NCBI GenBank assembly: GCA_016281475.1 | Contig: JAEEIS010000100.1 | Location: forward strand, 1-25,861 | Source of the DNA: Bacteroidales bacterium | GTDB taxonomy: Bacteria > Bacteroidota > Bacteroidia > Bacteroidales > P3 | Length of the DNA: 25,861 nt | Direction: 5' to 3' | Shown: one piece after another, positions 4,826-18,495 of the stretch | Numbering within the stretch: the stretch's first letter is position 1 | Layout: each line of letters starts with the position of its first letter | Notes under the pieces: model-generated | Database searches by the model: none | The model's input: the letters and a program-made list of their open reading frames with translations, nothing else | Told to the model about the DNA's origin: nothing | Translations under genes and position numbers: made by a program

Positions 4826-5367
4826 TGGATAGCGACAATTCAAATAGAATAAAGGAGAAAGGCGCGGCCATGCGGCTGCGCCTTTCTGACAAATGGCAGG
4901 ACTTTCGTGAGCGAATGCGCCACAAGCACCGTCTTGTGGTGTTGGATACCGACACGCTGCAAGAGAAGTTCTCCATGGAGTTGACTGGCCTCAACCTGTT
5001 CACGTATGTGGGCATCAGTGCCATTGTGCTTGTTATCCTCACCTCGCTCCTTATCGCCTTTACACCGCTACGCAACCTTGTGCCGGGCTATATCAAGCCG
5101 GAGTTGAAGGAAGAGACAATACGTAATGCCCAGATTATCGACTCGCTTGAGGTCATTATAGACCAACACGAGCAGCATATTGCCATCATCCAAGATGTCC
5201 TCAACGGAAAGGTATTCCGTGTAGAAAAGGACACCACGACTCAGGCGGTGGAGGATGAAGAAATAGTCTACCGCCATACTCGTGCCGACTCGCTGCTGCG
5301 TAAGGAGATTGAGCAACAGCGCAAGGAGGCAAAAGAGAAACAAAAGAAGAATAAGAAACGCAAATAG
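4825..5367 (+). CDS. Single-pass membrane protein resembling the N-terminus of Bacteroidota M23 peptidases
   Basis: The 180-aa protein has a basic cytoplasmic segment with RHKHRLVVLDTDTLQEKFS and LTGLNLFTYVG, one membrane helix (about 57-80), the stretch FTPLRNLVPGY, and a charged coiled-coil-like tail ending in Lys/Arg. From memory, the segment from HRLVV through PGY matches the N-terminal anchor of Bacteroidota M23 (LytM-type) peptidoglycan peptidases. Here no peptidase domain follows, so it is a stand-alone anchor or paralogue rather than an enzyme. The gene begins inside the stop codon of the foldase and is probably cotranscribed with it. A regulatory or scaffolding role in the envelope is an inference. 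Confidence 0.75.
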   Translation: MDSDNSNRIKEKGAAMRLRLSDKWQDFRERMRHKHRLVVLDTDTLQEKFSMELTGLNLFTYVGISAIVLVILTSLLIAFTPLRNLVPGYIKPELKEETIRNAQIIDSLEVIIDQHEQHIAIIQDVLNGKVFRVEKDTTTQAVEDEEIVYRHTRADSLLRKEIEQQRKEAKEKQKKNKKRK

Positions 5368-5642
5368 ATATTTAATGTTTAGAGGTTAGAGGTTAGTGTT
5401 TAGAGTTTGTTTTTGTTGCGTCAGTAAACCTTAAACTAATAAATTACCCCAGAGAGGTGAGCCCTTTAATAACACCGTACAAGCAGTCTTGTACGGTGCC
5501 GCGACTAGAAGGGAGCAACACCTAAAAAAGTGCAGTGCGGTGATTATCAAACCACAGAAAAACTGCGTCTCGAAGAGACGCGACAATGAAAACAACTTAA
5601 TATAACCCACCTTTAATCTTTAACCCACAAGTTTTATCCCAA
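5368..5642. repeat. Intergenic region with GTTTAGAGGTTAG repeats and two strong hairpins
   Basis: The stretch begins with degenerate direct repeats of GTTTAGAG/GGTTAG (5378-5408). An 11-bp perfect hairpin CACCGTACAAG-cagt-CTTGTACGGTG lies at 5473-5498. A 7-bp perfect hairpin GCGTCTC-gaa-GAGACGC lies at 5565-5581. Both arms recall motifs of the 86-bp array at 351 (CTTGTACCGTG; GCGTCCC/GGGACGC), so this may be a dispersed relative. No clear promoter for dxr was found here. Confidence 0.75.
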
Positions 5643-6770
5643 ATGAAAAGAATAGCGATACTAGGATCCACCGGCTCTATCGGCACTCAGGCACTCAACG
5701 TCATCCGCCGCCATCGTGACGAGATGGCCGTGGAAGTGCTGTGTGCGGGCAGCAATGCCGACCTATTGATAGCCCAGGCACTGGAGTTCGACCCCAATGT
5801 GGTGGCAATTGCCGACGAGAGCAAGTACCAGCAGGTGCAGGAGGCTCTTTCGTCCCACGACATAAAGGTGTTTGCCGGCATGGACTCAATTGCCGATTTG
5901 ATGGAAATGGAGACTATCGACATGGTGCTGGCATCAATCGTGGGTTTTGCTGGTCTGCGACCCACCCTTCGTGCCATCGAGCACCATAAGCCTATAGCCC
6001 TTGCCAACAAGGAAACTATGGTGGTGGCGGGGCAGATAGTGACCGATGCGGCGGCACGCAACCATGTGCCCATCCTGCCCGTCGATTCGGAGCATTCGGC
6101 CATCTTCCAGAGTCTCGTTGGCGAAGTGGGAGGGGTGGACAAGATACTGCTCACCGCCTCGGGTGGTCCATTCCGTGGATGGAAGCGCGAACAGCTGGAG
6201 AAGGTGACACTCGCTGACGCCCTCAAGCACCCCAACTGGAGCATGGGTCGCAAGGTGACGATTGACTCGGCCTCGTTGATGAACAAAGGATTGGAAGTAA
6301 TTGAGGCGCGCTGGCTTTTCGACATCCCTGCCGAACGCATACAGGTGTTGGTACACCCCCAGTCGGTGGTGCATTCGATGGTGCAGTATGTCGACGGCAG
6401 CATCAAGGCACAGCTGGGCATTCCCACCATGGAGACCCCTATCCAATATGCTTTCAGCTTCCCACAGCGCATTGAGAGCCATTTGCCGCGCCTTAGCTTT
6501 GAGAAATACGCTCAGCTCACTTTCGAGAACCCTGATACCGAAACATTCCGTTGCCTCCCCTTGGCATACGAAGCTATTGCCCGTGGGGGCAATATGCCTT
6601 GCATTATGAATGCCGCCAACGAAGTGGCAGTGCAGCAATTTATCGAAGGAAAGATCTCGTTCCTCCAAATTGCCGATACTGTTGAGCATCGGATGCAAAC
6701 AGCTTCATTTATAGCCAATCCCACGCTCGAAGACCTCTTCCATACAGATGCCGAAGTAAGAGGATTGTAA
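5643..6770 (+). CDS. dxr: 1-deoxy-D-xylulose 5-phosphate reductoisomerase
   Basis: DXR converts 1-deoxyxylulose 5-phosphate to methylerythritol 4-phosphate with NADPH, the committed step of the MEP isoprenoid pathway. The 375-aa length is slightly short but normal. Motifs visible in order are the NADPH loop GSTGSIG (residues 8-14), LANKETMV, the metal/substrate site PVDSEHSAIFQ, ASGGPFRG, HPNWSMGRKVTIDSASLMNKGLE, and the C-terminal NAANEVAV. No other MEP gene is in the window. The ECF sigma gene starts 53 bp downstream and probably has its own promoter. Confidence 0.97.
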   Translation: MKRIAILGSTGSIGTQALNVIRRHRDEMAVEVLCAGSNADLLIAQALEFDPNVVAIADESKYQQVQEALSSHDIKVFAGMDSIADLMEMETIDMVLASIVGFAGLRPTLRAIEHHKPIALANKETMVVAGQIVTDAAARNHVPILPVDSEHSAIFQSLVGEVGGVDKILLTASGGPFRGWKREQLEKVTLADALKHPNWSMGRKVTIDSASLMNKGLEVIEARWLFDIPAERIQVLVHPQSVVHSMVQYVDGSIKAQLGIPTMETPIQYAFSFPQRIESHLPRLSFEKYAQLTFENPDTETFRCLPLAYEAIARGGNMPCIMNAANEVAVQQFIEGKISFLQIADTVEHRMQTASFIANPTLEDLFHTDAEVRGL

Positions 6771-6823
6771 ATTTTTTTTAGGTGCATGTAACAAATCGAC
6801 CACTTTTTGCTACATACTATTAG

Positions 6824-7342
6824 ATGGACCAGAGAACGCCAGCCGAGGAACGTCTTCGCCAGCAGCAGTTCGTAGCAGAAGTGCAAAAGTGCGATGCGCT
6901 GATATACAGTGTATGTCGGCTCTATGGCTGTCGCCGTGACGAATCGACAGAAGATCTCTATCAGGAGATTGTCTGCACCTTGTGGGAGTCCTACGATTCA
7001 TTCAAGGGCGACAGCAGTTTCAGCTCGTGGCTTTATTCTGTTGCCCGCAACACGGCGGTGGCCTACTATCGGCGTAACCAATTGCGTCATCCCGAAATCA
7101 GCCTCACCGACGTGGAGCGCGACTTTCCGGACTGGCACGAGACGCCCAACCCCCTCCTCGGCGAACTCTACTATCTGATAGACCAACTGGGTGCAGACGA
7201 CCGCAAGCTGGTGGGTCTTTATATTGAAGGATATGAATATGACGAGATAGCGGAACAGATGAACCTCAGCCAACAGGCTGTCCGTACACGGATGAGCCGC
7301 ATCAAGGTTCGTCTGAGAGAATTAAAAGACCGTCAGAAGTGA
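6824..7342 (+). CDS. ECF-type RNA polymerase sigma factor
   Basis: The 172-aa protein has a sigma-2 region with the core-binding DLYQEIVCTLWESYDSF and FSSWLYSVARNTAVAYYRR, and a sigma-4 helix-turn-helix with YEYDEIAEQMNLSQQAVRTRMSRI. It lacks extra N-terminal domains, as ECF sigmas do. The next gene starts 11 bp after the stop and encodes a membrane protein with a cytoplasmic N-terminus, the normal position of an anti-sigma factor. Upstream, TGTAAC (6787-6792) and CTACAT (6810-6815) could be an autoregulatory ECF promoter, but this is unproven. If real, it would give a very short leader before ATG 6824. Confidence 0.93.
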   Translation: MDQRTPAEERLRQQQFVAEVQKCDALIYSVCRLYGCRRDESTEDLYQEIVCTLWESYDSFKGDSSFSSWLYSVARNTAVAYYRRNQLRHPEISLTDVERDFPDWHETPNPLLGELYYLIDQLGADDRKLVGLYIEGYEYDEIAEQMNLSQQAVRTRMSRIKVRLRELKDRQK

Positions 7343-7343
7343 A

Positions 7344-7348
7344 AGGAG
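7344..7348 (+). promoter_or_regulatory. Strong Shine-Dalgarno site (AGGAG) before the anti-sigma-like gene
   Basis: AGGAG lies five bases ahead of ATG 7354 (aaaggagatattATG). Such sites are rare in this window, and this one decides the start over the upstream GTG at 7339, which overlaps the sigma-factor stop. Confidence 0.75.
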
Positions 7349-7353
7349 ATATT

Positions 7354-8436
7354 ATGAACGAAGAACTAAATCTAGAGCCTTATCGGCAGGCATGGCAGGC
7401 GGAGAAAGAACGCCTGCAGTCTGCCCCTCCTCGACACACGGAGCAGGACATTGCTGCCATGCTGTCGCGCCACGACGCGAAAAAAGCCATTGCTCCAGTA
7501 CCGCCACAACGCCGTCGCACACTGCCTATCTGGTTTGGCAGTGCTGCTGCCAGTGTTGCCATCCTTTTGGGTGTAGCATGGTTTTTATGGCTGCGCCCCA
7601 CTTCTGGCCCTAACACCCTTCCCTCCCTTGCTGAACTGCGTCCTCAAACCTCCTCTCAGATTCCTTCAACAATTCCGACTACCCCGATGATTCCAATCAC
7701 TCCGAATCATCTGAATAGTCCAATTACTCAGATTAACCTGACAACCCCGCCATCATCCAATATCTCAGTAGTCACCGACACACCGATTATCACTACCGAA
7801 GATACTCAATCCTCAATTATTAATCCTCCAACCTCTATTCCAGCCGACCAGCCTGTCGCGCAACCCTCAATCAATTCCTCCGCCACGCAGCCACAATTGC
7901 AGGCTTTTCAAGAAACGAGCATCACTCACAATATCAAAAAGCAGAAAACACCCAAAGATCCTCTTGTGAGGACCGTGAATACAAGGCCAGTTTGGACCTC
8001 TCTTCGTTCACAAAGCACTCAAATAGCCCTTTCGTGCGGTGTCTCTTTCGCACAGGGTCGCAATCCACAGCCCCTCTTCGGCATTAGCGTGACCCATCAT
8101 GATGCCGAGAGCAACGGAATAATTGGTGCCAACAAACAAGGAGCCATATATCTGCGCACGTCGCTCCCATCCGATACTGCCAGCATGGCAGTCAGCATCC
8201 AATATGGCTACGGCCTTAACTATCGTCCCTCTGAGCGTCTCATCCTGCGTGTCAATTGTGGAGCCTTTGTTCAGTTTGTTGATTTCGACCTTGGATTGCG
8301 TTTCAATGCCGTGGCAGGCTACCAACTTAATGACGACTTTACCCTCACTGCAGGTTATCAATATTGTATGCCCGGCATCGTCTCAGGCGAAAGTTGCCAT
8401 GCGGCCATTCTTTCGATAGGATATATAATCAACTAA
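7354..8436 (+). CDS. Anti-sigma-like single-pass protein with barrel-like C-terminal domain
   Basis: The 360-aa protein has four visible parts. Residues 1-58 are a charged, helical cytoplasmic region with no zinc (HCC) motif. Residues 60-80 are a membrane helix. Residues 82-210 are a Thr/Pro/Ile/Ser-rich linker. Residues 215-360 alternate polar and apolar residues with many Gly/Tyr (for example IQYGYGLNY, LTAGYQYCM) and end in GYIIN, as in small outer-membrane beta-barrels. Its place directly after an ECF sigma gene suggests it restrains that sigma factor. The fusion of an inner-membrane anchor to a barrel-like domain is unusual. The C-terminal part could instead be a periplasmic beta-domain. 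Function is inferred from position and topology only. Confidence 0.7.
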   Translation: MNEELNLEPYRQAWQAEKERLQSAPPRHTEQDIAAMLSRHDAKKAIAPVPPQRRRTLPIWFGSAAASVAILLGVAWFLWLRPTSGPNTLPSLAELRPQTSSQIPSTIPTTPMIPITPNHLNSPITQINLTTPPSSNISVVTDTPIITTEDTQSSIINPPTSIPADQPVAQPSINSSATQPQLQAFQETSITHNIKKQKTPKDPLVRTVNTRPVWTSLRSQSTQIALSCGVSFAQGRNPQPLFGISVTHHDAESNGIIGANKQGAIYLRTSLPSDTASMAVSIQYGYGLNYRPSERLILRVNCGAFVQFVDFDLGLRFNAVAGYQLNDDFTLTAGYQYCMPGIVSGESCHAAILSIGYIIN

Positions 8437-8461
8437 ATATTAACAAAAATCTTTTCAACTT

Positions 8462-9229
8462 ATGAAAAAACAAATCATCCTCTTCGTTCTGATGCTCATG
8501 GCAGGCATTGCCAGCGCACAGGAAATTCGTTACATCTACCGCCCTGGTGAAGGCGAACGCCAGATGGGTGTCATTCTTGGTCCCACAATTGGACAGCAGT
8601 TCATGGAAATCCAAATGGGAGAGGACAATTCGCAGCGTATCAACAACCTTATGGGCTTCTCCGCAGGCTTCTTCTGGGGTTATGAGACCGACCACGGCCG
8701 TGCCATTGATTTTGGCAACCATGCTATGCTCAGCTACTCCTTCATCCCCTTCAACGGCAAGGTAGACTACACTGATGCCAACGGCTCCAAAGCCACTTCG
8801 AACATCGGTTTCAACGCCCAGCAGGTGCGTTTCTACGAGAACCCCTTTCTTGCCTATCGCATCAACCAGCAGTTCATCATCAATGCAGGTGTAGGTCTGG
8901 GCATCAACGCCGGTATTCCCAGCAAGTACCGTCGCGACGGCGTGTCGGCCAAGGCCAACTACAACATCCTCACTCAACTGTATGTCGATTTCGACGCCAA
9001 CATCGGTGCCAAATACTACATCACCGACGACCTCTTTATCGGCTTGCACGTGCATTGGGCTTTCTATAAGTTTGACATCCGCGACCTTATGGAAGCTGAC
9101 GAAAGTTGGACAAAAGGCCTCGTGGGTGGTATCTCCTTCCCCGTTGACCCTGAAAAAAGTCCGAATTGCGTCTATCTCCCCACCGCCAAGCCCTTCCAAG
9201 TGCTATTCTCCTTCGGCTACACGCGGTAG
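8462..9229 (+). CDS. Outer-membrane beta-barrel-like protein (exported, hypothetical)
   Basis: The 255-aa protein begins with a clear signal peptide (MKKQIILFVLMLMAGIASAQ). The mature chain is rich in alternating aromatic and polar residues typical of small porin-like barrels (for example VGLGINAG, IGAKYYITDDLFIGLHVHWAFYKF) and ends in LFSFGYTR. The gene follows the anti-sigma-like gene by 25 bp and likely belongs to the same transcription unit, so it may be a product or sensor partner of the sigma system. No specific family is recognised. Transcription probably ends in the hairpin at 9251-9328. Confidence 0.75.
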   Translation: MKKQIILFVLMLMAGIASAQEIRYIYRPGEGERQMGVILGPTIGQQFMEIQMGEDNSQRINNLMGFSAGFFWGYETDHGRAIDFGNHAMLSYSFIPFNGKVDYTDANGSKATSNIGFNAQQVRFYENPFLAYRINQQFIINAGVGLGINAGIPSKYRRDGVSAKANYNILTQLYVDFDANIGAKYYITDDLFIGLHVHWAFYKFDIRDLMEADESWTKGLVGGISFPVDPEKSPNCVYLPTAKPFQVLFSFGYTR

Positions 9230-9250
9230 GCCGCTAGGAATTTGAAAATT

Positions 9251-9328
9251 GAAAGGTGAAAATTGAAACTTCGCAGCGGCGGGCATTTGCTCGCTCCCGC
9301 GAGATTTCAATTTTCACCTTTCCCTTTT
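9251..9328. terminator. Bidirectional terminator-like inverted repeat between convergent genes
   Basis: GAAAGGTGAAAATTGAAA (9251-9268) is perfectly complementary to TTTCAATTTTCACCTTTC (9305-9322). The loop contains a GC-rich inner stem. CCCTTTTTT follows on the plus strand. It separates two convergent genes, so it can stop both. The GAAAATTGAAA core recurs before the symporter gene near 19665-19690, so it is a dispersed sequence type. Confidence 0.8.
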
Positions 9329-11398
9329 TTATCGTGCGGTTGTGCTTTGGCTGCTACCCGAGGTGGTGGGGGTGCTGCCAATGTAGTAGCCGTGCCAGCT
9401 GCTGCCACCGCTGAAGGTGCTGGTGGTCCAGTACTGGTAGGTGCCGTCCACCACATCAGGCGAGGAGAATACTATTGTGTTGCCACCTCCCGGAGGGGGT
9501 GGGGGCTTGGCACCGGGGTCGGTATAGTCCTCGGTGAAGCCGCTGCCCGTGGGGGCGGTGTTGAGGTACATCAGTATCACGTCGCCCGCACTATTCTTGA
9601 TGCAGAGGCCATTGGTGCCATTATTGTTTATTTGCAGATAGCGTTGCGAACCGCTCACGTTGGGGCGGTCCCACGCGCCCATGCGGTCGCCTTGGGTGAT
9701 GATAATGCCGCCGTCCACCGAGAAGTGTCCGCCTGCGTCTGTGGCAGCATCGATGCCCACCTCTTGGCCTTTCACGATGATAAGGCCACCGTGGATATTG
9801 GTGTTGCCGTTGCAGTCGATGGCATCGTTGCCACGAGAGTAGCACCATAGCTTGCCATCGTTGATTTCAAGATAGTTGGCAGCGTTAATCGCGTCGTCGA
9901 AGGCGTTAGCCTCGATGATGCCGCCGTTGACGAAGAGGCTGTCCTTACTTTCGATGGCCTCGCCGTTGGGGTCACCGCTGGTCTGTGAGCAGTAGGCACC
10001 CACATGCCCACTGTTGAAGTAGATGTTACCCTCCACCTTGATACCTTTTGGCAGGCCTTTGAAATAGTCGTCGTTGCCACCCCAGGAACCGCCGCCACTG
10101 CTGACAGGATTGATAGCATTGCCGCTGGTTTGGACATAGACGTAGATGAGGTCGTCGTCAGCACCCACGGTGCCTACTACGAGCTTGCCGTCGGCCTTGA
10201 TGCCGCGACCGCCCAATCCAGTGCTGCGGGCATCGAGACGGCCGCCGTTGATGTAGATGTTGCTGTCGGCAGAGATGCAGGTGCTAGCGTAGCCGTCAAC
10301 GGCGTTGCGACCCGTACCACCCACACAGGTACCGTCGCCAGCAGTAGTGAGCACAGTGTAGCCACCATTGACGATGAGGTCGTAGTCGCTCGACAGGCAG
10401 CGTCCGCCGTGGTTCGAGGCAGGACAGCTGACGGTGAGGTTGCCACCGTTGATGACGATGTTGCCAACTGTCCCTTCGTCGGCATCGCCGGTCTTGATGC
10501 CAGTGCAATACGAGAAGTCGTAGCCTGTGGCGTAGTCGCTGGAGGTGTCTATCTCAATTGAGCCGGATGCCACAACGTTCAGACTGCCACCATTCATGTA
10601 GAAGTGCTGGTCGGTCTTGATGCCCTTCTTGGTGTCGCCACTGACGGTGACGTTGGTGGTGCCTTGGTTGATGGTTACGCCCCGCTTGCCTTGCAGGCCG
10701 TTGGCGTAGGCGGAGGTGATGTCGAGTGTGCCAGAGCCTTGCACGGTGAGACTGCCCTTACCGTAGACCATCGCCTTATCAACATTGCTGTCGGCATCGA
10801 TAAAGGTGTTGGTGGTGCCTCTTACGAGATGCAGGAGGGCGTTCTGATTCTTGTCGATGTTGATGGCGGCATTGCCCACGGAGGTGAGCTGCACACCGTC
10901 CATGCGCAAGATGACGGGAGTGCTGAGCTTGCTGAACAGCAGCCAGCCGTCGTTGCTGGTGCCACTGAGGTTATATACCACGTTGTTGAGTGTGGTGCAG
11001 TTCGATTTGACGGTCACATGCCCGCCTTCGGAGGTAATCTTGATGCTGTCGTTAGGGTAGGGGTTGTTGATGGTGACGCTGCTGCCGTTCCACTCAATGC
11101 GAATCATGCCCACAGTGTCCACTGCCACCGTGTCGGTGATGATGGTGGTGTCGGTGTCGCTGCTCATGGCAAAGGTGAGGCTGTCGAGCATCTCCACTGG
11201 GCGACTCCAGGTGGCATCGCTATAGTGGAAGGTAAGGTAGTTGTCATTGGTGTATTTGATGCTGTCGAGTGTGCGGACGGGAGTCTGGAATATGACGTTG
11301 CCAGCATAGTGGACGCGGGCGACACGCTGTTCTTGGGCGTAAGCGGACGAGATGCCGATGAGGGCAAACAAGGCTATGATAATCGTGTATTTCTTCAT
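9329..11398 (-). CDS. Secreted Cthe_2159-like carbohydrate-binding beta-helix protein
   Basis: The 689-aa protein has a signal peptide (residues 1-22, ending AYAQ). An N-terminal region with the DSIKY/DSLTF pattern is common in Bacteroidota surface proteins. A long right-handed beta-helix-like array follows, built from repeated turns such as INGGNLTVSC, VNGGYTVL, INGGRLDARS, VNGGIIEANAF and IHGGLIIVKG. The repeat style and motifs such as GIKADGKL and DDAINAAN match the Cthe_2159 (DUF4353) family, described as polygalacturonate/cellulose-binding. The last 60 residues follow a PPPPPGGG linker. No T9SS tail is seen on this protein, but the gene 12 bp upstream has one. An adhesin or glycan-binding role is inferred. 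Confidence 0.8.
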   Translation of the reverse strand: MKKYTIIIALFALIGISSAYAQEQRVARVHYAGNVIFQTPVRTLDSIKYTNDNYLTFHYSDATWSRPVEMLDSLTFAMSSDTDTTIITDTVAVDTVGMIRIEWNGSSVTINNPYPNDSIKITSEGGHVTVKSNCTTLNNVVYNLSGTSNDGWLLFSKLSTPVILRMDGVQLTSVGNAAINIDKNQNALLHLVRGTTNTFIDADSNVDKAMVYGKGSLTVQGSGTLDITSAYANGLQGKRGVTINQGTTNVTVSGDTKKGIKTDQHFYMNGGSLNVVASGSIEIDTSSDYATGYDFSYCTGIKTGDADEGTVGNIVINGGNLTVSCPASNHGGRCLSSDYDLIVNGGYTVLTTAGDGTCVGGTGRNAVDGYASTCISADSNIYINGGRLDARSTGLGGRGIKADGKLVVGTVGADDDLIYVYVQTSGNAINPVSSGGGSWGGNDDYFKGLPKGIKVEGNIYFNSGHVGAYCSQTSGDPNGEAIESKDSLFVNGGIIEANAFDDAINAANYLEINDGKLWCYSRGNDAIDCNGNTNIHGGLIIVKGQEVGIDAATDAGGHFSVDGGIIITQGDRMGAWDRPNVSGSQRYLQINNNGTNGLCIKNSAGDVILMYLNTAPTGSGFTEDYTDPGAKPPPPPGGGNTIVFSSPDVVDGTYQYWTTSTFSGGSSWHGYYIGSTPTTSGSSQSTTAR

Positions 11399-12314: not shown

Positions 12315-12367
12315 AACAAAGAATAGATTAATTGGCATAGGTATCTGCCACAGTGAAATGGGTACTT

Positions 12368-12844
12368 ATGTGTACAAGGGAGTATAAAAGTAGGCGGAGG
12401 ATAGGAATGTTAGCCGTTTTGGTGTTCACTTCACTATCTATGAATAATGTGCAAGCTCAGAAAAATGTCATGATGGAAATATCGTGGTATGCTTATGGTG
12501 CTACGTATAGTGGATTGATGACAACATATGCCGATAACACGGGTGATTTCATTGTCAATTATTATCGTCCCAATGTTGGGTATATACAGGTACATCAGGA
12601 TGTTCGTGTAAACACGAAATGTGACGGTTGGGGTAATTGCATCACATATCTTTATGGATACAATGTAACATCAGATCCACCCGTTGCCTACATCCCAGAC
12701 AATTTTGTAATATACCCTAATGGGACTGTGTACACGCAAGACTATAATGGTATGTGGTCTATACCTGTAACTGCACGAATTGTTCCTGTAAATCAGTGGA
12801 GAGCAACTTTGAGGAGATACGGAATTAATTTAAAAAATAATTAA
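12368..12844 (+). CDS. Small exported protein of unknown function, first gene of the accessory operon
   Basis: From ATG 12368 the product is 158 aa. An in-frame GTG at 12353 would add five residues. The N-terminus is basic (REYKSRRR), then hydrophobic (MLAVLVFTSLSM), then has a likely cleavage site after NNVQA, so export is expected. The mature part is Tyr/Asn-rich and probably beta-stranded, with two close cysteines in KCDGWGNC. No known family is recognised, and it does not resemble a beta-grasp ubiquitin-like protein. It lies 10 bp before the E2-like gene and is AT-rich like the rest of the operon, so it is probably a component of the same system working outside the cytoplasm. Confidence 0.75.
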   Translation: MCTREYKSRRRIGMLAVLVFTSLSMNNVQAQKNVMMEISWYAYGATYSGLMTTYADNTGDFIVNYYRPNVGYIQVHQDVRVNTKCDGWGNCITYLYGYNVTSDPPVAYIPDNFVIYPNGTVYTQDYNGMWSIPVTARIVPVNQWRATLRRYGINLKNN

Positions 12845-12854
12845 AACTAACAAT

Positions 12855-13667
12855 ATGCAAAAGACTTTATCAATTCCTTGTGGTAGATTTGCAGCAGATG
12901 ACGATGCTGCAGCAAAAGCCAAACGAGAAGAGTTGCGCCGTAAACTTTTAGGCGGTGATACCATCACCCTAAAAAATGATGGTTCCGCAACCAATACTCA
13001 AGGTGACAACTCAACAATCAGCATTCCGAAAGGCAAACTGGCAGATGACGATGCTGCGGCAAAAGCCAAACGAGAAGAGTTGCGCCGTAAACTTTTAGGT
13101 GGCGATACGATCACCTTGAAAAACGATGGCTCAGCAACAAATAGCCAAGGTGACAATTCAACAATTAGTATTCCCAAAGGGAAACTGGCTGCACAATGGT
13201 ATGAAGCTAATCCCCAATTGCTTGCTTTGGAACGTATCGCCATGCAAAAAGCCTTTCCTAATTTCAAACTAGAGACACTAGATGATGGTCGTAAAGCGTG
13301 GGTTGGTAAGCTCAATGTCGGTGTTTATGAAACCAAATTCCACCAGCCAATGGAATACCATGTCATGGCCATATACATGAACAACCATCCGCACCAACAA
13401 ATGGGTTCTTCTGTGCGGGTTTATCCTATCGTACCTAATGTACAAGAACTGATTAATAAATGTGGATTCCGCCCATACCACCTTCTTACAGATTCAATAG
13501 GTGATTTGTATTTATGCACCAACGAAGCCGATAACCAAAGGACAGGAAATGATATCACTAGTGCAGCTTCGGTTCTTGGATGGGCATGCAAGTGGTTTCT
13601 CGGCTATGAACTTGTCTTGACTGGTGATTTGGACAAAGACAAGTTTAATCAACATGGGGGGATATGA
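12855..13667 (+). CDS. E2-like (UBC-fold) protein with two N-terminal 49-residue repeats
   Basis: The 270-aa protein has two parts. Residues 14-62 and 63-111 are near-identical repeats, each with an acidic start (ADDDAAAKAK), a basic helix ending RRKLLGG, and a Thr/Ser/Asn-rich stretch ending SIPKGKL. Residues 113-258 look like a prokaryotic E2 domain: W149-G151, YHVMAIYMNNHP, VRVYPIVP, then H209 and C221 in HLLTDSIGDLYLC, and a later GWACKWF helix. In E2 enzymes, the Cys after the His accepts an activated modifier as a thioester. C221 is a candidate, although its spacing differs slightly from eukaryotic E2s. The chain ends in HGGI. The stop overlaps the JAB start by four bases (ATGA). The E2 call is by pattern and genomic context. 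Confidence 0.72.
   Translation: MQKTLSIPCGRFAADDDAAAKAKREELRRKLLGGDTITLKNDGSATNTQGDNSTISIPKGKLADDDAAAKAKREELRRKLLGGDTITLKNDGSATNSQGDNSTISIPKGKLAAQWYEANPQLLALERIAMQKAFPNFKLETLDDGRKAWVGKLNVGVYETKFHQPMEYHVMAIYMNNHPHQQMGSSVRVYPIVPNVQELINKCGFRPYHLLTDSIGDLYLCTNEADNQRTGNDITSAASVLGWACKWFLGYELVLTGDLDKDKFNQHGGI
12894..13187 (+). repeat. 147-bp in-frame tandem duplication inside the E2-like gene
   Basis: Unit 1 (12894-13040) and unit 2 (13041-13187) encode 49 residues each that differ at one position (Thr/Ser), while the DNA differs at many third-codon positions, mostly in the second half. This shows an old duplication kept by selection on the protein. A short leading copy of the linker motif (SIPCGRF) precedes unit 1. 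Confidence 0.9.
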
Positions 13668-14593
13668 TTATGAGCCATAATTGCAGTGCAGTTGTATTCT
13701 CGAATAGAGCATACAACGCAATTATCCGTGAAACTTTTGAGAAACATCCGGTTGAGACAGGGGGTATCCTGCTAGGACATATTATTGACGACACCTGGGT
13801 TGTAATGGAGGTGTTACCGCCGGGTAGTCATAGTATTTTTCAGACAGCATACTTTGAGTATGACGAGCGTTTTGTCAATTATCTTGCACAATCTGTTGCC
13901 AATCAGTACAAGCGTCCTTTGTCCTTGTTGGGTTTGTGGCATCGTCATCCGGGGCACATGGATGTGTTTTCAGGAACTGATGACCAGACCAACAGCACGT
14001 TTGCAAGACAATTGCCGAAAGGCGTTATATCTGGATTGGTAAATGTGGATCCTACTTTCAGGTTTACGATGTACTATCTTGATTGTGCTCGGATTGTTAC
14101 TAATTATCGCCCAGAATATGAGAAAGTAGATGTTGAAGTTGGAGACGATATTATTCCTCCCTCTTTTTTTGAGTTGAAATATGTTGTGCCAGGTGCCGAA
14201 AATATTCATCCGCTACCACCTGAAAACAATATGGAAGTAAGTCATTCTGTAGAACGACAGACTTTTCGTCAAGAGAAATCCATTATTGACGATTATGAGG
14301 ATACTATAGAACTATCGAGATTCAAAACAAGGGAGTTGATGGGAGAATTGTTGAAACGTATGTTTCTGTGGATAAGAAAGCGATGGAAAGAAATTCTTAT
14401 AATATTGTTAATCTGTGCCTTGACACTTTCTTTCAGTAATGTTATAAAAGTATGTGTACTTGGCATTAAGGAGAAAATTGAAAAAGTGGTAAAGGACGGT
14501 GATGAGATAGGTATTCCTGCTATTCCAGCACACGAGATTAAAAATGAGACATCCTCTGATGAGTCAAATAATGATAATGTTGAACAGAAATAG
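13664..14593 (+). CDS. JAMM/JAB-family metallopeptidase with C-terminal membrane anchor
   Basis: The 309-aa protein starts with a JAB/MPN domain (about 1-145). All catalytic residues are visible: E31 in VETGGILLGH, and the zinc motif H93-x-H95-x7-S103-x2-D106 in LWHRHPGHMDVFSGTDD. JAMM enzymes remove or mature ubiquitin-like modifiers. Residues 145-240 are a linker. A membrane helix lies at about 242-260 (ILIILLICALTLSF), followed by an acidic tail. This places the peptidase at the inner membrane, unlike the soluble Cap3 and BilC enzymes. ATG 13664 overlaps the E2 stop; ATG 13670 is an equally possible start. Confidence 0.9.
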   Translation: MIMSHNCSAVVFSNRAYNAIIRETFEKHPVETGGILLGHIIDDTWVVMEVLPPGSHSIFQTAYFEYDERFVNYLAQSVANQYKRPLSLLGLWHRHPGHMDVFSGTDDQTNSTFARQLPKGVISGLVNVDPTFRFTMYYLDCARIVTNYRPEYEKVDVEVGDDIIPPSFFELKYVVPGAENIHPLPPENNMEVSHSVERQTFRQEKSIIDDYEDTIELSRFKTRELMGELLKRMFLWIRKRWKEILIILLICALTLSFSNVIKVCVLGIKEKIEKVVKDGDEIGIPAIPAHEIKNETSSDESNNDNVEQK

Positions 14594-14599
14594 AAGAAG

Positions 14600-15757
14600 A
14601 TGGAGAATAAGGAGTTATCAATGAATGATGTTTTGGCAAAGTTTAGTCAAAAGAAACGTCGTCGACCTACGGTATGTTTTCCTAATGAGCTGTCAAAAAT
14701 GGATTCATGTGAATTGTATGGGTATTACCAGAAGGAAAGTAATTATTACAATATCACGTCTATAGGAGAATCTAAAATGTCATTAGGTTGTCAAGATACG
14801 ATATTATTAGGAAAGTATGTGGGAGAAGTAAGCGAGCCCCCTATTAATCTTCTTGAGAATTCAGATAAGTTGCTTGGATATAAATATAATGATAGTCTCT
14901 TTTTTGTTGCTGATGGTGAGGAATGTGAGCAAGAGCCATTTTGCCTTAAGATGGACATCTTTTCTCGCAATACAGGTATTCTTGAATCTGACACAATGTT
15001 GAAAAAGGGTGCTATTATTATTGGGTGCGGTTCTGTTGGCTCTTTGGTGGCTTTGGAGTTAGCAAGGGCTGGTGTTGGACGATTCTTTTTGATAGACATG
15101 GATATTATGAGTTATCACAATATCTGCCGTCACCAATGTGGAGTTCAAGATGTAGGAAAGTTCAAAACCACAGCAATTAAAGAAAGGATATTACAGATTA
15201 ACCCTACTGCCGAAGTACATACTGAGAACAAGATGATTCAGGAAATAGCACTTGGCGCGTTCGAAGATTTCTGCAATGAAGATTGCATAATGATTGGTTG
15301 TGCTGATAACAGAGAAGGTGATTTGTATGCTGATGCAATGATAGCAAAGCCTTACAAAATGCCATTCGTTTCTATCGGTTGTTGGGAACGTGCTTTTGCA
15401 GGAGAGATATTCTATTGTCTACCAGAAGGAATGCCTGCATATTCCGATTTTGTGGCAGCATTGGGCGAAAGCTCTGGACGTACAACAGCTAATACCCACC
15501 TTTATATGGGTGAGGTCGGTACTTTTGAACCAGGTATATCAGTCGATATTAATTTTGTCACCACTATAGCCATAAAACTGATTCTAGACCTATTGAATCG
15601 AGACAATGATGGATACACGCAACGTCTCATAGGTAGTCTGACTCAGTATACACTTATCTGCAATACGAACAATCCCAAAATTGGAGGTGAAATGGCGGAG
15701 ATTTTTTCGTATCCACTCCAAGTAACAAGAAGCATTAAAGTAGAATACGCAAATTAA
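14600..15757 (+). CDS. ThiF/E1-like adenylating enzyme
   Basis: The 385-aa protein has an uncharacterised N-terminal region (1-130) and a Rossmann adenylation domain (about 135-335). The nucleotide loop is G142-C-G-S-V-G147. The acidic residue that holds ribose is in FLIDMDIM (D166/D168). The N174, R177 and Q179 set in NICRHQCG and K187 in VGKFKT are the usual ATP/Mg residues. A236-type DNREG follows at about 235-240. C261 (SIGCWERAF) or C273 may be the thioester cysteine. The zinc CxxC pairs of MoeB/ThiF are absent. E1-like enzymes adenylate a modifier C-terminus and pass it to an E2. The gene starts six bases after the JAB stop. Confidence 0.9.
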   Translation: MENKELSMNDVLAKFSQKKRRRPTVCFPNELSKMDSCELYGYYQKESNYYNITSIGESKMSLGCQDTILLGKYVGEVSEPPINLLENSDKLLGYKYNDSLFFVADGEECEQEPFCLKMDIFSRNTGILESDTMLKKGAIIIGCGSVGSLVALELARAGVGRFFLIDMDIMSYHNICRHQCGVQDVGKFKTTAIKERILQINPTAEVHTENKMIQEIALGAFEDFCNEDCIMIGCADNREGDLYADAMIAKPYKMPFVSIGCWERAFAGEIFYCLPEGMPAYSDFVAALGESSGRTTANTHLYMGEVGTFEPGISVDINFVTTIAIKLILDLLNRDNDGYTQRLIGSLTQYTLICNTNNPKIGGEMAEIFSYPLQVTRSIKVEYAN

Positions 15758-15772
15758 TAAACATAAAAGTAT

Positions 15773-16225
15773 ATGTATCAGTTCTATGTTAAATTAGATG
15801 GGCAGCAGTATGGGCCGTATACTGCCACCCAAATAGTAAATATGGATTTGCCTGACAATACCGAAGTTATGGAAGCAAGTATTGGCTCATGGGAAATTGC
15901 TAGTAATTATCCATGGTCTGACTTGGTTATGAAAGAATCTGGTGCAGCGATTGGGCCAAGTGGCAATATTGTTGCAGGCAATTCTGGTTCGTATGTTCCT
16001 CCAGGAGGGTATCAGACTCCTCATGTCCAGCAGCCTCAGTCAAGTCTGGGTGACGAACCCAGTACAGGGTTAAACATTCTATCGTTTTTATTCCCTCTTG
16101 TAGGCTGGATACTCTATTTTGCACTCAACAAGTCTGAGAAGGGAAAGGCTTGCGCAAAGTGGGCGTGGATTGGTTTTGCCGTCGGCTTCATCTTTAATCT
16201 TATTGTTGTTGCTGCGGGTTCATAA
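15773..16225 (+). CDS. GYF_2-like domain membrane protein
   Basis: The 150-aa protein starts with a GYF_2/DUF4339-like domain (1-52: FYVKLDGQQYGPYTATQI, then a Trp-containing WEIASNYPWSDLV). A flexible Gly/Pro/Gln linker follows (55-97), then two membrane helices (about 100-118 and 129-148) separated by a basic loop. GYF domains bind proline-rich peptides in other proteins. In bacteria these adapters are often found with membrane partners. The next gene also begins with a GYF-like domain, so the two may share a ligand within this system. The partner is not known. Confidence 0.82.
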   Translation: MYQFYVKLDGQQYGPYTATQIVNMDLPDNTEVMEASIGSWEIASNYPWSDLVMKESGAAIGPSGNIVAGNSGSYVPPGGYQTPHVQQPQSSLGDEPSTGLNILSFLFPLVGWILYFALNKSEKGKACAKWAWIGFAVGFIFNLIVVAAGS

Positions 16226-16229
16226 TTGA

Positions 16230-17279
16230 ATGGCATATATAATAATTCGAGACGAGGGAAACCTCGGTCCGTTTGACGAACAAGAAGTTGCTGAGTTTGT
16301 CTGTAACGGCCTTGTGCTTACACGTGAGAAATGTTATGATACATTACATCCGGGTTCCATTACGACTGTCGGTGAAGTGTTGCATAGTAAAGGTTTCTCT
16401 ACAAGAGTTCAACAAAGCGGGTCATTCTTGAATCAGTTGAAAACAATTGGGGGCAATTTGTTGTTGCCCAAAGCAGTTTTCTCGTCAGAACCATGGAAAA
16501 GAGACCGCAGGCTTTTGTTGATGGCAGTTGTTGGATTGTCACTTTCGGTACTGATAAACATATCTGGCATTCTACCAGATTTGGTAATATTTTATGTGGT
16601 GTCACTTTATTTTGCCATTATATGGGGATTATTTTTCTATTATTTGTTCTGTACAGAGCAGGTAAGGCTAAAGCCAACAATAATAACTATTTTTTTTACT
16701 CAAATTACCACTGTGATATTGTTCTCAATAGTGGGTGTTGGTGGGCTTACAGGACTAATTGGTTATAACATTCTTGGATGTACAATTGGAATAGGTGTTC
16801 CTGAGGAGTTTACAAAACTTTTAATCATATTAATTATTCTTTCAAGGTCCAAAGAGATTCTTACACCAGACACTGTGGTATACTATGGGCTAATGTCGGG
16901 AATTGCTTTCGGTGTTTTTGAGGGTGTACAATATCAAACTACAGTGAATTACGCGTTACTGCTTGAAGGTGGGACTTCATCCACAGTATATACACAATCG
17001 TTTCTAATGAACATTATACGACTTACATCATTGCCATTCCTTCATGCAGTTTGGTGTGGCATTGGAAGCTATTATGCTGCCTGCTCATGGATATTCCCTC
17101 ATTATAGAAACACACTCATTACATTGGCAATATTGATACCAGCTTTACTTCATGGGTTGTACGATTATCTTGTCTTCAATGGGATGTCTGTCTTAAGTAT
17201 TGCTGTTGTATTTCTGTCAGTTGTATTGTTAATGGTGTATCTAGCAAGCCATTATAAACTAGTTCAAAAAATACGGTAA
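16230..17279 (+). CDS. PrsW-family intramembrane protease with GYF-like N-terminus
   Basis: The 349-aa protein has an N-terminal GYF-like domain (1-55: IIIRDEGNLGPFDEQEVAEF) and about eight membrane helices from residue 95 on. The PrsW (M82) signature residues are visible: E192-E193-x2-K196 in VPEEFTK, E231 in FGVFEGVQY, H272 in LHAVWCG, and H308 and D312 in HGLYDY. PrsW proteases cleave membrane proteins; in Bacillus subtilis one cleaves the anti-sigma factor RsiW. The gene starts four bases after the previous stop, inside the E1/E2/JAB operon. A role in cutting a membrane substrate within this system is inferred. Confidence 0.88.
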   Translation: MAYIIIRDEGNLGPFDEQEVAEFVCNGLVLTREKCYDTLHPGSITTVGEVLHSKGFSTRVQQSGSFLNQLKTIGGNLLLPKAVFSSEPWKRDRRLLLMAVVGLSLSVLINISGILPDLVIFYVVSLYFAIIWGLFFYYLFCTEQVRLKPTIITIFFTQITTVILFSIVGVGGLTGLIGYNILGCTIGIGVPEEFTKLLIILIILSRSKEILTPDTVVYYGLMSGIAFGVFEGVQYQTTVNYALLLEGGTSSTVYTQSFLMNIIRLTSLPFLHAVWCGIGSYYAACSWIFPHYRNTLITLAILIPALLHGLYDYLVFNGMSVLSIAVVFLSVVLLMVYLASHYKLVQKIR

Positions 17280-17281
17280 TA

Positions 17282-17953
17282 ATGCAAAGAGACTGTCAAT
17301 TAATGGATAATGGAGATGTCTATGAGATTCTCAAAGATGGCACAATCCATAAAGTTGGAAATGTCAAGAGTAGTGCGTTAAATCCTGTTGATGATAATCT
17401 GATAAAGTGGATATGGGTTTTAGCAATAGGGTGTATGGGCCTTTGTATAGCATTTCTTGTTGTTCGGTCAAACTTGAGCGATACTAAAGTCCAAGAAGAA
17501 CACTATCGGTCTTTGTATAACGAAGAATATAAAGAGAATAGAGAGTTATTGCAGATCAAACAAGAGGTTGCGGCAACCTATCCGATTATCATTAATGAAA
17601 TAGAGATAGGAAATGTGCATGGTGATGGAATGATAGCAACATATTATGGGAATACCATTTATAGTTACAATACGATGTATCTAAAGCCGAAGATTTCTTA
17701 TATAGGTCTTCGTGATGGAAGTTGTACGTTAAAGGTGAAATTATATGATAATTATGGAAACCTTCGTAGCGGAACTGGTTCGCCAAGAGGTTATTCGTAC
17801 TCGTGTAATGAAACTATTTGTGAGGGGAATAATGTCTTATACCTTGATGGTTGGGGGAACGATACAAAGGGGTATTGGTCTTCAGGTACATACCGAATAG
17901 AGGTATGGTATAATGATATGTGTCTAAAATCCGATAGGTTTACGATATATTAG
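17282..17953 (+). CDS. Membrane-anchored protein with C-terminal beta-domain, unknown function
   Basis: The 223-aa protein has a short cytoplasmic N-terminus (YEILKDGTIHKVGNV), a membrane helix (about 41-62), a charged coiled-coil-like segment (65-95), and a C-terminal beta-rich domain (about 103-223) with YLKPKISYIG, SPRGYSYS, YLDGWGNDTKGYW and GTYRIEVWYNDMCL. The last part has the rhythm of an Ig-like sandwich exposed outside the cytoplasm. No named family is recognised. It is the last gene of the accessory operon and starts two bases after the PrsW stop. A sensing or effector role is only a guess. Confidence 0.75.
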   Translation: MQRDCQLMDNGDVYEILKDGTIHKVGNVKSSALNPVDDNLIKWIWVLAIGCMGLCIAFLVVRSNLSDTKVQEEHYRSLYNEEYKENRELLQIKQEVAATYPIIINEIEIGNVHGDGMIATYYGNTIYSYNTMYLKPKISYIGLRDGSCTLKVKLYDNYGNLRSGTGSPRGYSYSCNETICEGNNVLYLDGWGNDTKGYWSSGTYRIEVWYNDMCLKSDRFTIY

Positions 17954-18226
17954 CCACTCTAGTATATAGTATGACTGATTTTGTCGTCTCTTCGAGGTGT
18001 TGAGTAGTAGGGCTGTCCTTAACCCTACATTGCACGAAAACTGGGCAAAAGTTTACAGAACTTTTGCTATCCTTTTGGTCGCGACCCCATTCCCGTTTGT
18101 GAGGTTTTTTTTCGAGACGTTGCTGAATTTAGGCAAAGCAAGCGAGCTTGCTCTGTGCTCGGCTTTTACAACATTATTAAGAATCAGCATTTTCGATGCT
18201 ATTGAAATTATTAGTCCTATACCAAA
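17954..18226. other. Remnant DNA right of the accessory operon
   Basis: No gene is supported. GTCGTCTCTTCGAGG at 17983-17997 resembles the reverse complement of the hairpin element at 5565-5584. GTAGGG and CCCTAC near 18006-18027 can form a small hairpin. AGCAAG-cgag-CTTGCT lies in 18139-18155. A plus-strand frame of 77 codons at 17997-18230 has no domain and is rejected. The region looks like decayed repeat or mobile-element debris. Confidence 0.5.
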
Positions 18227-18430
18227 CTAGAACCAATATTGTTTCTCAATCCATGGCATCAAGGCTTCTGTAGCATATAATGGGTAGTTGGTCGTCCACG
18301 ACTGCTCGCGGTAGGGGGCCATAGAAAAACGGATGCCGTGCAGATTCTCGTTTGCCCTGACAAAATAGCGCAGACTTTTCGACTGGAGATTGTCCTTGGC
18401 TTTCACCTATATCGGTATGATATTGTCTTC
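18227..18430 (-). pseudogene. C-terminal fragment of a DUF4143-type AAA ATPase
   Basis: On the minus strand, the frame that ends at the TAG of 18229-18227 reads VKAKDNLQSKSLRYF, then IRFSMAPYREQSW and TNYPLYATEALMPW. This is the C-terminal signature of DUF4143 ATPases (typically IPIEVKA...SLR.F...IRTS...W.TN.PLYA). Upstream, DNIIPI is followed by an in-frame TAG (18409-18407) where the family has Glu, and the rest of the gene is missing. A TATCTTTG promoter-like motif (minus, 18444-18437) lies just beyond the break. This is a dead remnant. Confidence 0.75.
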
Positions 18431-18495
18431 ACATTGCAAAGATACAAATATTATACAAAACTCCGACTAATAAGTACATTCTTTCTTCCTAGGTT

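Follow-up and report, generated by a model that had tools for sequence, protein, structure and literature searches.

What might a set of ubiquitin-like conjugation enzymes do when their genes lie directly beside that of a membrane protease? We asked this for an operon on contig JAEEIS010000100.1 of a Bacteroidales bacterium (GenBank assembly GCA_016281475.1), of which positions 1 to 25,861 (25,861 nucleotides) were analyzed and are referred to here as the window. The operon comprises seven plus-strand open reading frames (ORFs), called between positions 12353 and 17953 and spaced by -4 to +15 bp, which encode a small exported protein, an E2-like enzyme, a JAB peptidase of the JAMM type, an E1-like enzyme, a membrane protein with a GYF_2-like domain, a PrsW protease, and a beta-domain protein. 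This confirms the seven tightly packed genes, from a 4-bp overlap to a 15-bp gap, of a preliminary description made from the sequence. The operon interval is low in guanine plus cytosine (GC), with fractions of 0.36 to 0.44 over 12 to 18 kb versus 0.47 to 0.61 in the remaining 1-kb steps. The observation is sound and extends beyond this single operon, and the enzymes and their linkage are direct observations. As to what they do, we tentatively propose a reversible, inner-membrane-linked E1-E2-JAB module coupled to a membrane exit machine, likely acting in conflict or phage defense at the envelope, a reading to which we give a little less than an even chance.

The E2-like protein yielded no Pfam match above the cutoff and was matched by PADLOC E2 models (best, 5.5e-8), and its homologues are assigned to Pfam family PF26395. 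Its AlphaFold model had a mean predicted local distance difference test (pLDDT) score of 69, with values below 60 in the N-terminal repeats and ten-residue means of 74 to 95 from residue 111 onward, except for 59 at residues 221 to 230. The top Foldseek match of the model was 8yjy_B, the E2 of a Serratia CdnG-E2 complex (E, 5.4e-3; probability, 1.00), followed by TSG101 UEV domains, and UBE2S and Ube2w were also matched. As modeled, the core of this 270-residue protein is of the ubiquitin-conjugating (UBC) type, in keeping with its earlier designation as E2-like. Furthermore, His-209 and Cys-221 were invariant in all 30 rows of alignment A1. Scanning genome contigs (one genome per species, 84,980 species) once with a profile of the E2 alignment identified 25 related loci, and both residues were kept in 25/25 E2 rows, that is, 24 loci and the window, the E2 of locus L025 being cut off.

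Of 7998 scored candidates, 292 were E2 homologues, and the following tallies refer to the 120 of them that were listed. At the N terminus of the window E2 lie two 49-residue repeats, encoded by 147-nt direct copies that are 88% alike and absent from the preliminary description; the repeat (ca. 50 residues) is present in one, two, or three copies in 8, 97, and 15 of the listed homologues, respectively. The C-terminal tail, FNxHGGI, is conserved (F at -7 in 119, H at -4 in 111, G at -3 in 94, G at -2 in 101, and I or V at -1 in 115), and the ends of JAB and E1 are not. Position -2 is Arg, Val, Ala, Lys, or Leu in 19/120, and several E2s of the loci end in HGEI, HGVI, HGVL, HSGI, HRGI, HNGI, or PGVV. 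No conserved C-terminal Gly was seen in JAB, E1, PrsW, or the beta-domain protein, and the C-terminal ends of WXG2 were loosely GI-rich. The E2 tail is, on alignment evidence, a lead toward a possible modifier. The LLGG of the E2 repeats was also considered as a ubiquitin-like tail and rejected because many listed homologues have no Gly pair there. A PDB sequence profile search with the E2 alignment returned only three weak, unrelated matches. In two homologues, E2 is joined to another domain (a membrane domain in P0113 and a TerD-like N terminus in P0092), and in Bacteroides nordii (L010, positions 9992 to 10800) the E2 frame is interrupted, giving two ORFs with one internal stop. A motif resembling the IPKGKLA of the repeats was observed at the start of three membrane proteins (L004, positions 7680 to 8240; L020_08, 187 amino acids [aa]; and L015_15, 93 aa). 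L029 is a minimal, divergent version that has JAB, E1, a multisegment membrane protein, and an E2 with a single repeat. This E2 lacks the conserved tail. A possible recognition of the IPxGKLA repeat motif by GYF_2 was considered and set aside, L029 having the motif but no GYF match.

JAB matched Prok-JAB of Pfam with 45.1 bits (cutoff, 25; E, 1e-11), and the residues of its JAMM motif, E...HxHx7Sx2D (Glu-31, His-93, His-95, Ser-103, and Asp-106), were invariant in 26/26 JAB sequences. Together with a C-terminal hydrophobic segment, this agrees with the earlier call of a peptidase with a full residue set and a membrane anchor. The JAB at positions 10816 to 12441 of L002 carries Ig-like Big_2 domains after its membrane segment, suggesting from domain order that its C terminus lies outside. 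The E1-like call likewise held, with ThiF of Pfam scoring 83.3 bits (cutoff, 28.1; E, 1.9e-23). Its nucleotide-binding residues are conserved as invariant columns of alignment A2, and among the cysteines in 22 rows, which are candidates for the thioester residue, Cys-143, Cys-180, Cys-225, and Cys-354 were invariant and Cys-109, Cys-176, and Cys-273 nearly so. The E1 model had a mean pLDDT of 67, with residues 291 to 316 and 347 to 385 below 50.

PrsW is likewise supported. PF13367 (PrsW-protease) scored 56.4 bits (cutoff, 23.5; E, 3.8e-15), and the EExxK, E, H, and H/D residues named in the preliminary description were found as Glu-192, Glu-193, Lys-196, Glu-231, His-272, and His-308 in 11/11 sequences and Asp-312 in 10/11; the NCBIfam PrsW equivalog scored 18.2 against a cutoff of 225. 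Its N terminus had been described as GYF-like, a label that we dropped, since the GYF profile was not significant there (E, 3.6 in the window and 0.36 to 0.73 in four relatives), and we therefore term this PrsW N-extended. The same profile matched a distant stand-alone PrsW in locus L050 (4.3e-6 over 23 residues). The 150-aa protein matched GYF_2 with 21.6 bits, below the cutoff of 25.8 (E, 1.9e-4), and the sole Pfam match of the beta-domain protein was Y_Y_Y at 0.018. A start of the exported protein at Met-19 (ca. 12407) gives 145 aa with a signal-peptide-like beginning, identical to database entry P0121. The preliminary description had counted this protein as part of the set. It was found in 0/25 related loci and had six database matches, one being itself, so on these sequence searches it is probably a passenger.

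The related loci reveal how far the linkage extends. Their ORFs came from a simple longest-ORF script, some being spurious, and were annotated with profiles built from window and locus proteins; the 25-locus counts leave the window out. JAB was present in 24/25 loci, the exception being L020, which ends at its E2, and E1 in 23/25 (not in L020 and L005). GYF-like domains occurred in 21/25, the beta-domain profile in 7/25, and a profile of a short "DG" motif in 14/25. PrsW was found in 10/25 loci (L001, L002, L003, L007, L010, L016, L018, L019, L024, and L025), and an FtsK-like ATPase with WXG100-like proteins, as in ESX (type VII) secretion, in 12/25 (L004, L006, L007, L008, L009, L011, L013, L014, L015, L017, L020, and L022). 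Only L007 has both, and L005, L012, L021, and L023 have neither. The window-type order E2-JAB-E1-GYF-(beta)-PrsW recurs in L001, L002, L003, and L010, and the six-gene set E2-JAB-E1-GYF-beta-PrsW in 3/25 (L002, L003, and L010).

In 9/12 ESX-type loci, FtsK and E2 are connected by plus-strand ORFs no more than 136 bases apart; in L007, L009, and L015, the largest gap is 295 to 378 bases, where the script took a minus-strand ORF. Most FtsK ATPases of these loci carry one or two GYF domains. That of L011 matched FtsK_SpoIIIE (PF01580; 3.4e-24) and two GYF_2 domains (3.5e-11), and its PDB sequence matches include EccC5 and YukB. By record label, 9 of the 12 loci belong to Bacteroidota, 2 to Clostridiales or Clostridium, and 1 to an uncultured bacterium. 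The E1s of the two labeled Clostridiales or Clostridium (L011 and L013) fall among Bacteroidota E1s, and these loci are either mislabeled or transferred.

Thus, the E2, JAB, and E1 genes travel with membrane genes in the 25 loci, and the membrane theme is real and not bound to one partner. Neither outcome that the preliminary description had named as refuting, a 270-aa protein lacking the UBC fold or enzyme genes separated from the membrane genes, was observed. The UBC-type core and this linkage support the part of the preliminary description that proposed a distinct, envelope-linked version. The part that did not stand is the seven-gene set as a unit: the exported gene recurs in no related locus, the other six genes recur together in three, and 12 loci have an ESX-like exporter instead of or beside PrsW.

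Linkage is accompanied by fusion. E2-like domains without the active-site Cys (pseudo-E2s) form the C terminus of PrsW in L007, L016, L018, L019, L024, and L025 and of JAB in L015, L017, L018, L019, L023, L024, and L025. None of the 13 has Cys at the aligned position, which is occupied by Asp, Asn, Glu, Thr, or Lys; 9/13 were detected by single-sequence phmmer with the window E2 and 4 only by an iterated profile. As predicted from these sequences, the fusions tie the protease and the JAMM enzyme physically to the conjugation machinery. Extra E2-like ORFs without Cys occur in L004, L006 (a fragment), L011, and L020. Besides, many accessory proteins start with a shared, short hairpin-like motif (INEFGEIIRE or DDGxIYRINEDGS), which some GYF proteins carry at the end. 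Across the 26 loci, window included, a regular expression for it matched 41/138 accessory ORFs of the operon runs versus 3/211 ORFs outside, 37/94 accessory ORFs with a predicted membrane segment, and 3/135 core ORFs, counts that are descriptive and not a test because the expression was devised after viewing the data, the ORF set is partly spurious, and the rows are related.

From these observations we infer clients, a modifier, and a function as follows. E1 would adenylate the C terminus of a modifier without a recognizable ubiquitin-like fold, perhaps a co-encoded protein, as with cGAS in the cyclic-oligonucleotide-based antiphage signaling system (CBASS). E2, gathered via its N-terminal repeats, would attach it to inner-membrane clients bearing the DG/INEFGEIIR ends; pseudo-E2 and GYF domains would dock PrsW, JAB, or FtsK onto marked clients, which PrsW may then cut or the ESX-like motor export, and the membrane JAMM enzyme would reset the mark. 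The likely use would be in conflict or phage defense at the envelope. A sharper form, in which conjugation decides inner-membrane protein traffic (cutting by PrsW or ESX-like export, with JAMM reset) and the modifier may be the E2 tail FNxHGG-I/V, is doubtful, and we consider it unlikely as a whole. This traffic reading is bold, drawn from gene linkage and domain fusions.

Several observations weigh against the proposed coupling, besides the descriptive nature of the motif counts. Neither modifier nor client was identified. Foldseek gave no match of the E2 model at an E value of ≤0.001, 4/26 JABs (L005, L013, L023, and one of two in L022) lack a membrane segment according to a crude hydropathy script, and the window beta-domain protein fails the motif expression, though the motif profile matches it. 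In L005, the 659 bases left on the contig after JAB contain no E1, L029 has E2, JAB, and E1 without PrsW or ESX, and both WXG100 matches of L011 (5e-5 and 0.0018) are below the Pfam curated cutoff. The partners also occur apart from the enzymes. Genome G327 has an N-extended PrsW without E2 (L050), and a distant ESX-like FtsK (E ≤ 1e-20) occurs in 5/393 Bacteroidales genomes, none of them E2 positive. In a whole-genome FtsK search of 12 genomes of the loci (that of L016 being left out), only one of the 11 without ESX at the locus, that of L025 (G011), has an ESX-like FtsK elsewhere (2e-197); those of L001, L002, L010, L012, L018, L019, L021, L023, and L024 gave weak matches only (2.3e-6 to 3.7e-9), and that of L003 gave none.

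The same distribution bears on history. E2 was found in 2/393 Bacteroidales genomes, one being the center genome G004 (that of L010), so there is one besides; N-extended PrsW (E < 1e-60) was also found in 2/393, G004 and G327, with two weaker matches. In L050 (positions 8806 to 9864), the N-extended PrsW stands alone among housekeeping-type genes, and the five distant ESX-like loci without E2 (L051 to L055) have small WXG100-like neighbors in 4/5. An E1 tree of 24 rows, midpoint rooted, with 8/21 inner branches open and L029 on a long branch, splits into two main clades. ESX-type operons are found in each of them, N-extended PrsW is confined to one, and the PrsW-pseudo-E2 fusion to the other, so that PrsW is linked in two architectures. 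PrsW and the ESX partners are independently existing modules that have been combined. An origin from a mobile element was considered and rejected, as E2 has no relative in viral contigs, phages, or plasmids and no tRNA was found in the window; a plasmid search with E1 gave 292 records, none with 80% coverage and all below 60% identity.

PADLOC was run on ten selected proteins, five from L010, two from L001, and one each from L002, L003, and L011. Defense-type neighbors are AbiLi at L001 and a PDC-S01 candidate at L002; in L010, a C39-like peptidase, two dynamin-like GTPases (Leo-like), and Hsp70 lie upstream of E2 (positions 3929 to 9957) and a caspase-like protein downstream (positions 17596 to 18474). 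Chosen by eye and with no background rate, which also counts against our reading, they weakly favor a conflict role.

These neighbors also bear on a different explanation, namely an antiphage system of the CBASS or Bil type, in which the protein conjugated by E1 and E2 is a sensor encoded with them or comes from a phage, the GYF membrane protein, PrsW, and the beta-domain protein are abortive-infection effectors, and the ESX-like genes are alternative effectors. The AbiLi, dynamin/Hsp70/caspase, and PDC-S01-type neighbors would fit it, as would the PADLOC matches to E2, JAB, and E1-E2 models, the gene order E2-JAB-E1, which is that of Bil, the rarity of the operon, and its location in a low-GC stretch. 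It has to contend with seven ORFs that include no CD-NTase or ubiquitin-like match, with E1 and JAB scores far below the NCBIfam cutoffs for Cap3 and 6A-MBL, with ESX-like genes that form a multigene set rather than a single effector, and with the lack of any phage or plasmid copy in our searches. On balance, we regard this explanation as possible but rather unlikely.

MccB is an E1 homologue that modifies a peptide, and it ranked first among the PDB matches of the E1 model, with PaaA seventh, so modification of a peptide by E1 followed by export via PrsW or ESX was also weighed. Since Cap2 (7to3) ranked second and BubCD fourth, an E2 with intact Cys and a JAMM domain occur throughout, and no short precursor gene was seen between the operon genes, it appears highly improbable. 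Envelope-stress signaling would instead have PrsW cut the beta-domain protein, with the conjugation enzymes tuning the switch. PrsW has been described as the site-1 protease of RsiW (PMC3482391), the PrsW residues are intact here, and a protein with one hydrophobic segment is encoded directly downstream; however, the seven ORFs gave no sigma or anti-sigma family match, and 11/25 relatives have ESX without PrsW, so that we consider this improbable as well, if less remote than peptide modification. The membrane-coupled module thus stays our tentative preference.

The features of the operon are compiled in the table. Promoter-like sites in the window were as frequent as in shuffled sequences (21 versus 21.5). 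Terminator-like sites numbered 11 versus 4.4 in shuffles, 10/11 being inside genes and one lying just 3' of the operon (positions 18044 to 18068). The flanking transporter has at most 64% identity to its matches and was found in 50/393 Bacteroidales genomes. Among the seven ORFs, there was no ubiquitin-like Pfam match at an E value of ≤1, a search that divergent ones could escape, and no CD-NTase or metallo-beta-lactamase match to Pfam, PADLOC, or NCBIfam models.

Table. Coordinates of the operon features in the window
Feature	Position	Strand	Remarks
Small exported protein	12353..12844	+	163-aa ORF; likely start ca. 12407
E2-like enzyme	12855..13667	+	270 aa; PADLOC E2, 5.5e-8; UBC-like model
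E2 N-terminal repeat unit 1	12894..13040	+	Helix plus hairpin in model, low confidence
E2 N-terminal repeat unit 2	13041..13187	+	Second 147-nt direct copy
JAMM/JAB isopeptidase-like domain with one C-terminal hydrophobic segment	13664..14593	+	309 aa; Prok-JAB; hydropathy script
E1-like adenylating enzyme	14600..15757	+	385 aa; beta-rich N-domain plus ThiF/Rossmann domain
GYF_2-like domain with two hydrophobic segments	15773..16225	+	150 aa; GYF_2 below cutoff
PrsW intramembrane protease, cytoplasmic-looking N-terminal extension	16230..17279	+	349 aa; PF13367
Beta-domain protein	17282..17953	+	223 aa; short "DG" N-terminal motif, one hydrophobic segment, C-terminal beta domain

To our knowledge, the bacterial ubiquitin-like systems described so far target soluble sensors or phage proteins. 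If our reading is true, an E1-E2-JAB set wired to intramembrane proteolysis and ESX-like export would extend tagging to envelope traffic, in functional analogy to the sorting of membrane proteins by ubiquitin. The ties to PrsW and, in relatives, to an export motor hint that tagging may govern cleavage from the bacterial envelope or passage through it. Such a set would also indicate that Gram-negative bacteria have an exporter resembling type VII and offer an example of how inactive E2 domains turned into readers, as in Dysgonomonas sp. 216 (L019).

Among the openly licensed papers listed by our searches, a scope that does not establish absence from print, none describes E1-E2-JAB operons that include PrsW or a Bacteroidota ESX. 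Type II CBASS (Cap2, E2-E1; Cap3, JAB) shares the three enzymes with the window operon, and the best match of the E2 model (8yjy) and one match of the E1 model (Cap2) are CBASS proteins. The operon differs from it in having no CD-NTase match, separate E1 and E2 genes, a membrane segment on JAB, and PrsW/GYF or ESX-like partners, and the Cap3 equivalog (NF050170) scored 18.9 bits against a cutoff of 200. Conjugation is reported to be possible without a ubiquitin-like protein, as with cGAS in CBASS, the reacting end being a C-terminal Gly or Ala (PMC10097602). The 6A-MBL model (NF058523) scored 51.0 bits with JAB and 66.8 bits with E1 against a cutoff of 320; E2, E1, and JAB are fused there and accompanied by a metallo-beta-lactamase, whereas the operon here has separate genes. 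Bil and Bub have separate E2, JAB, and E1 genes as well, and the E1 model matches BubCD, but the operon here gave no ubiquitin-like protein match, in a search that a divergent one could escape, and has membrane partners.

Operon type 6d is related to PRTRC, whose ThiF model scored 22.4 bits against a cutoff of 144.75. E1-E2-JAB operons were catalogued in 2006 by Iyer, and in that survey, type 6d (JAB, E1, and E2, as in the window) is given for Bacteroides thetaiotaomicron among others and combines a ubiquitin-like protein with an E2 in which the classical His is missing (PMC1779556), whereas the window E2 keeps His-209. The same survey connects ESX of Gram-positive bacteria with the ubiquitin-like protein YukD (PMC1779556), and a 2024 abstract assigns type VII systems to Bacillota and Actinomycetota (PMC11217815). 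The resemblance to these systems lies in the FtsK ATPase and WXG100-like proteins of 12/25 related loci; an EssC-type ATPase and WXG100 are absent from the window operon, and the relatives are distinguished by GYF domains on most ATPases and by their occurrence mostly in Bacteroidota. As for PrsW, which has also been proposed as a toxin-release peptidase in the report on RsiW (PMC3482391), the window protein resembles its family in scoring above the PF13367 cutoff and keeping the active-site residues, and it differs by its N-terminal extension, as do six relatives by their C-terminal pseudo-E2.

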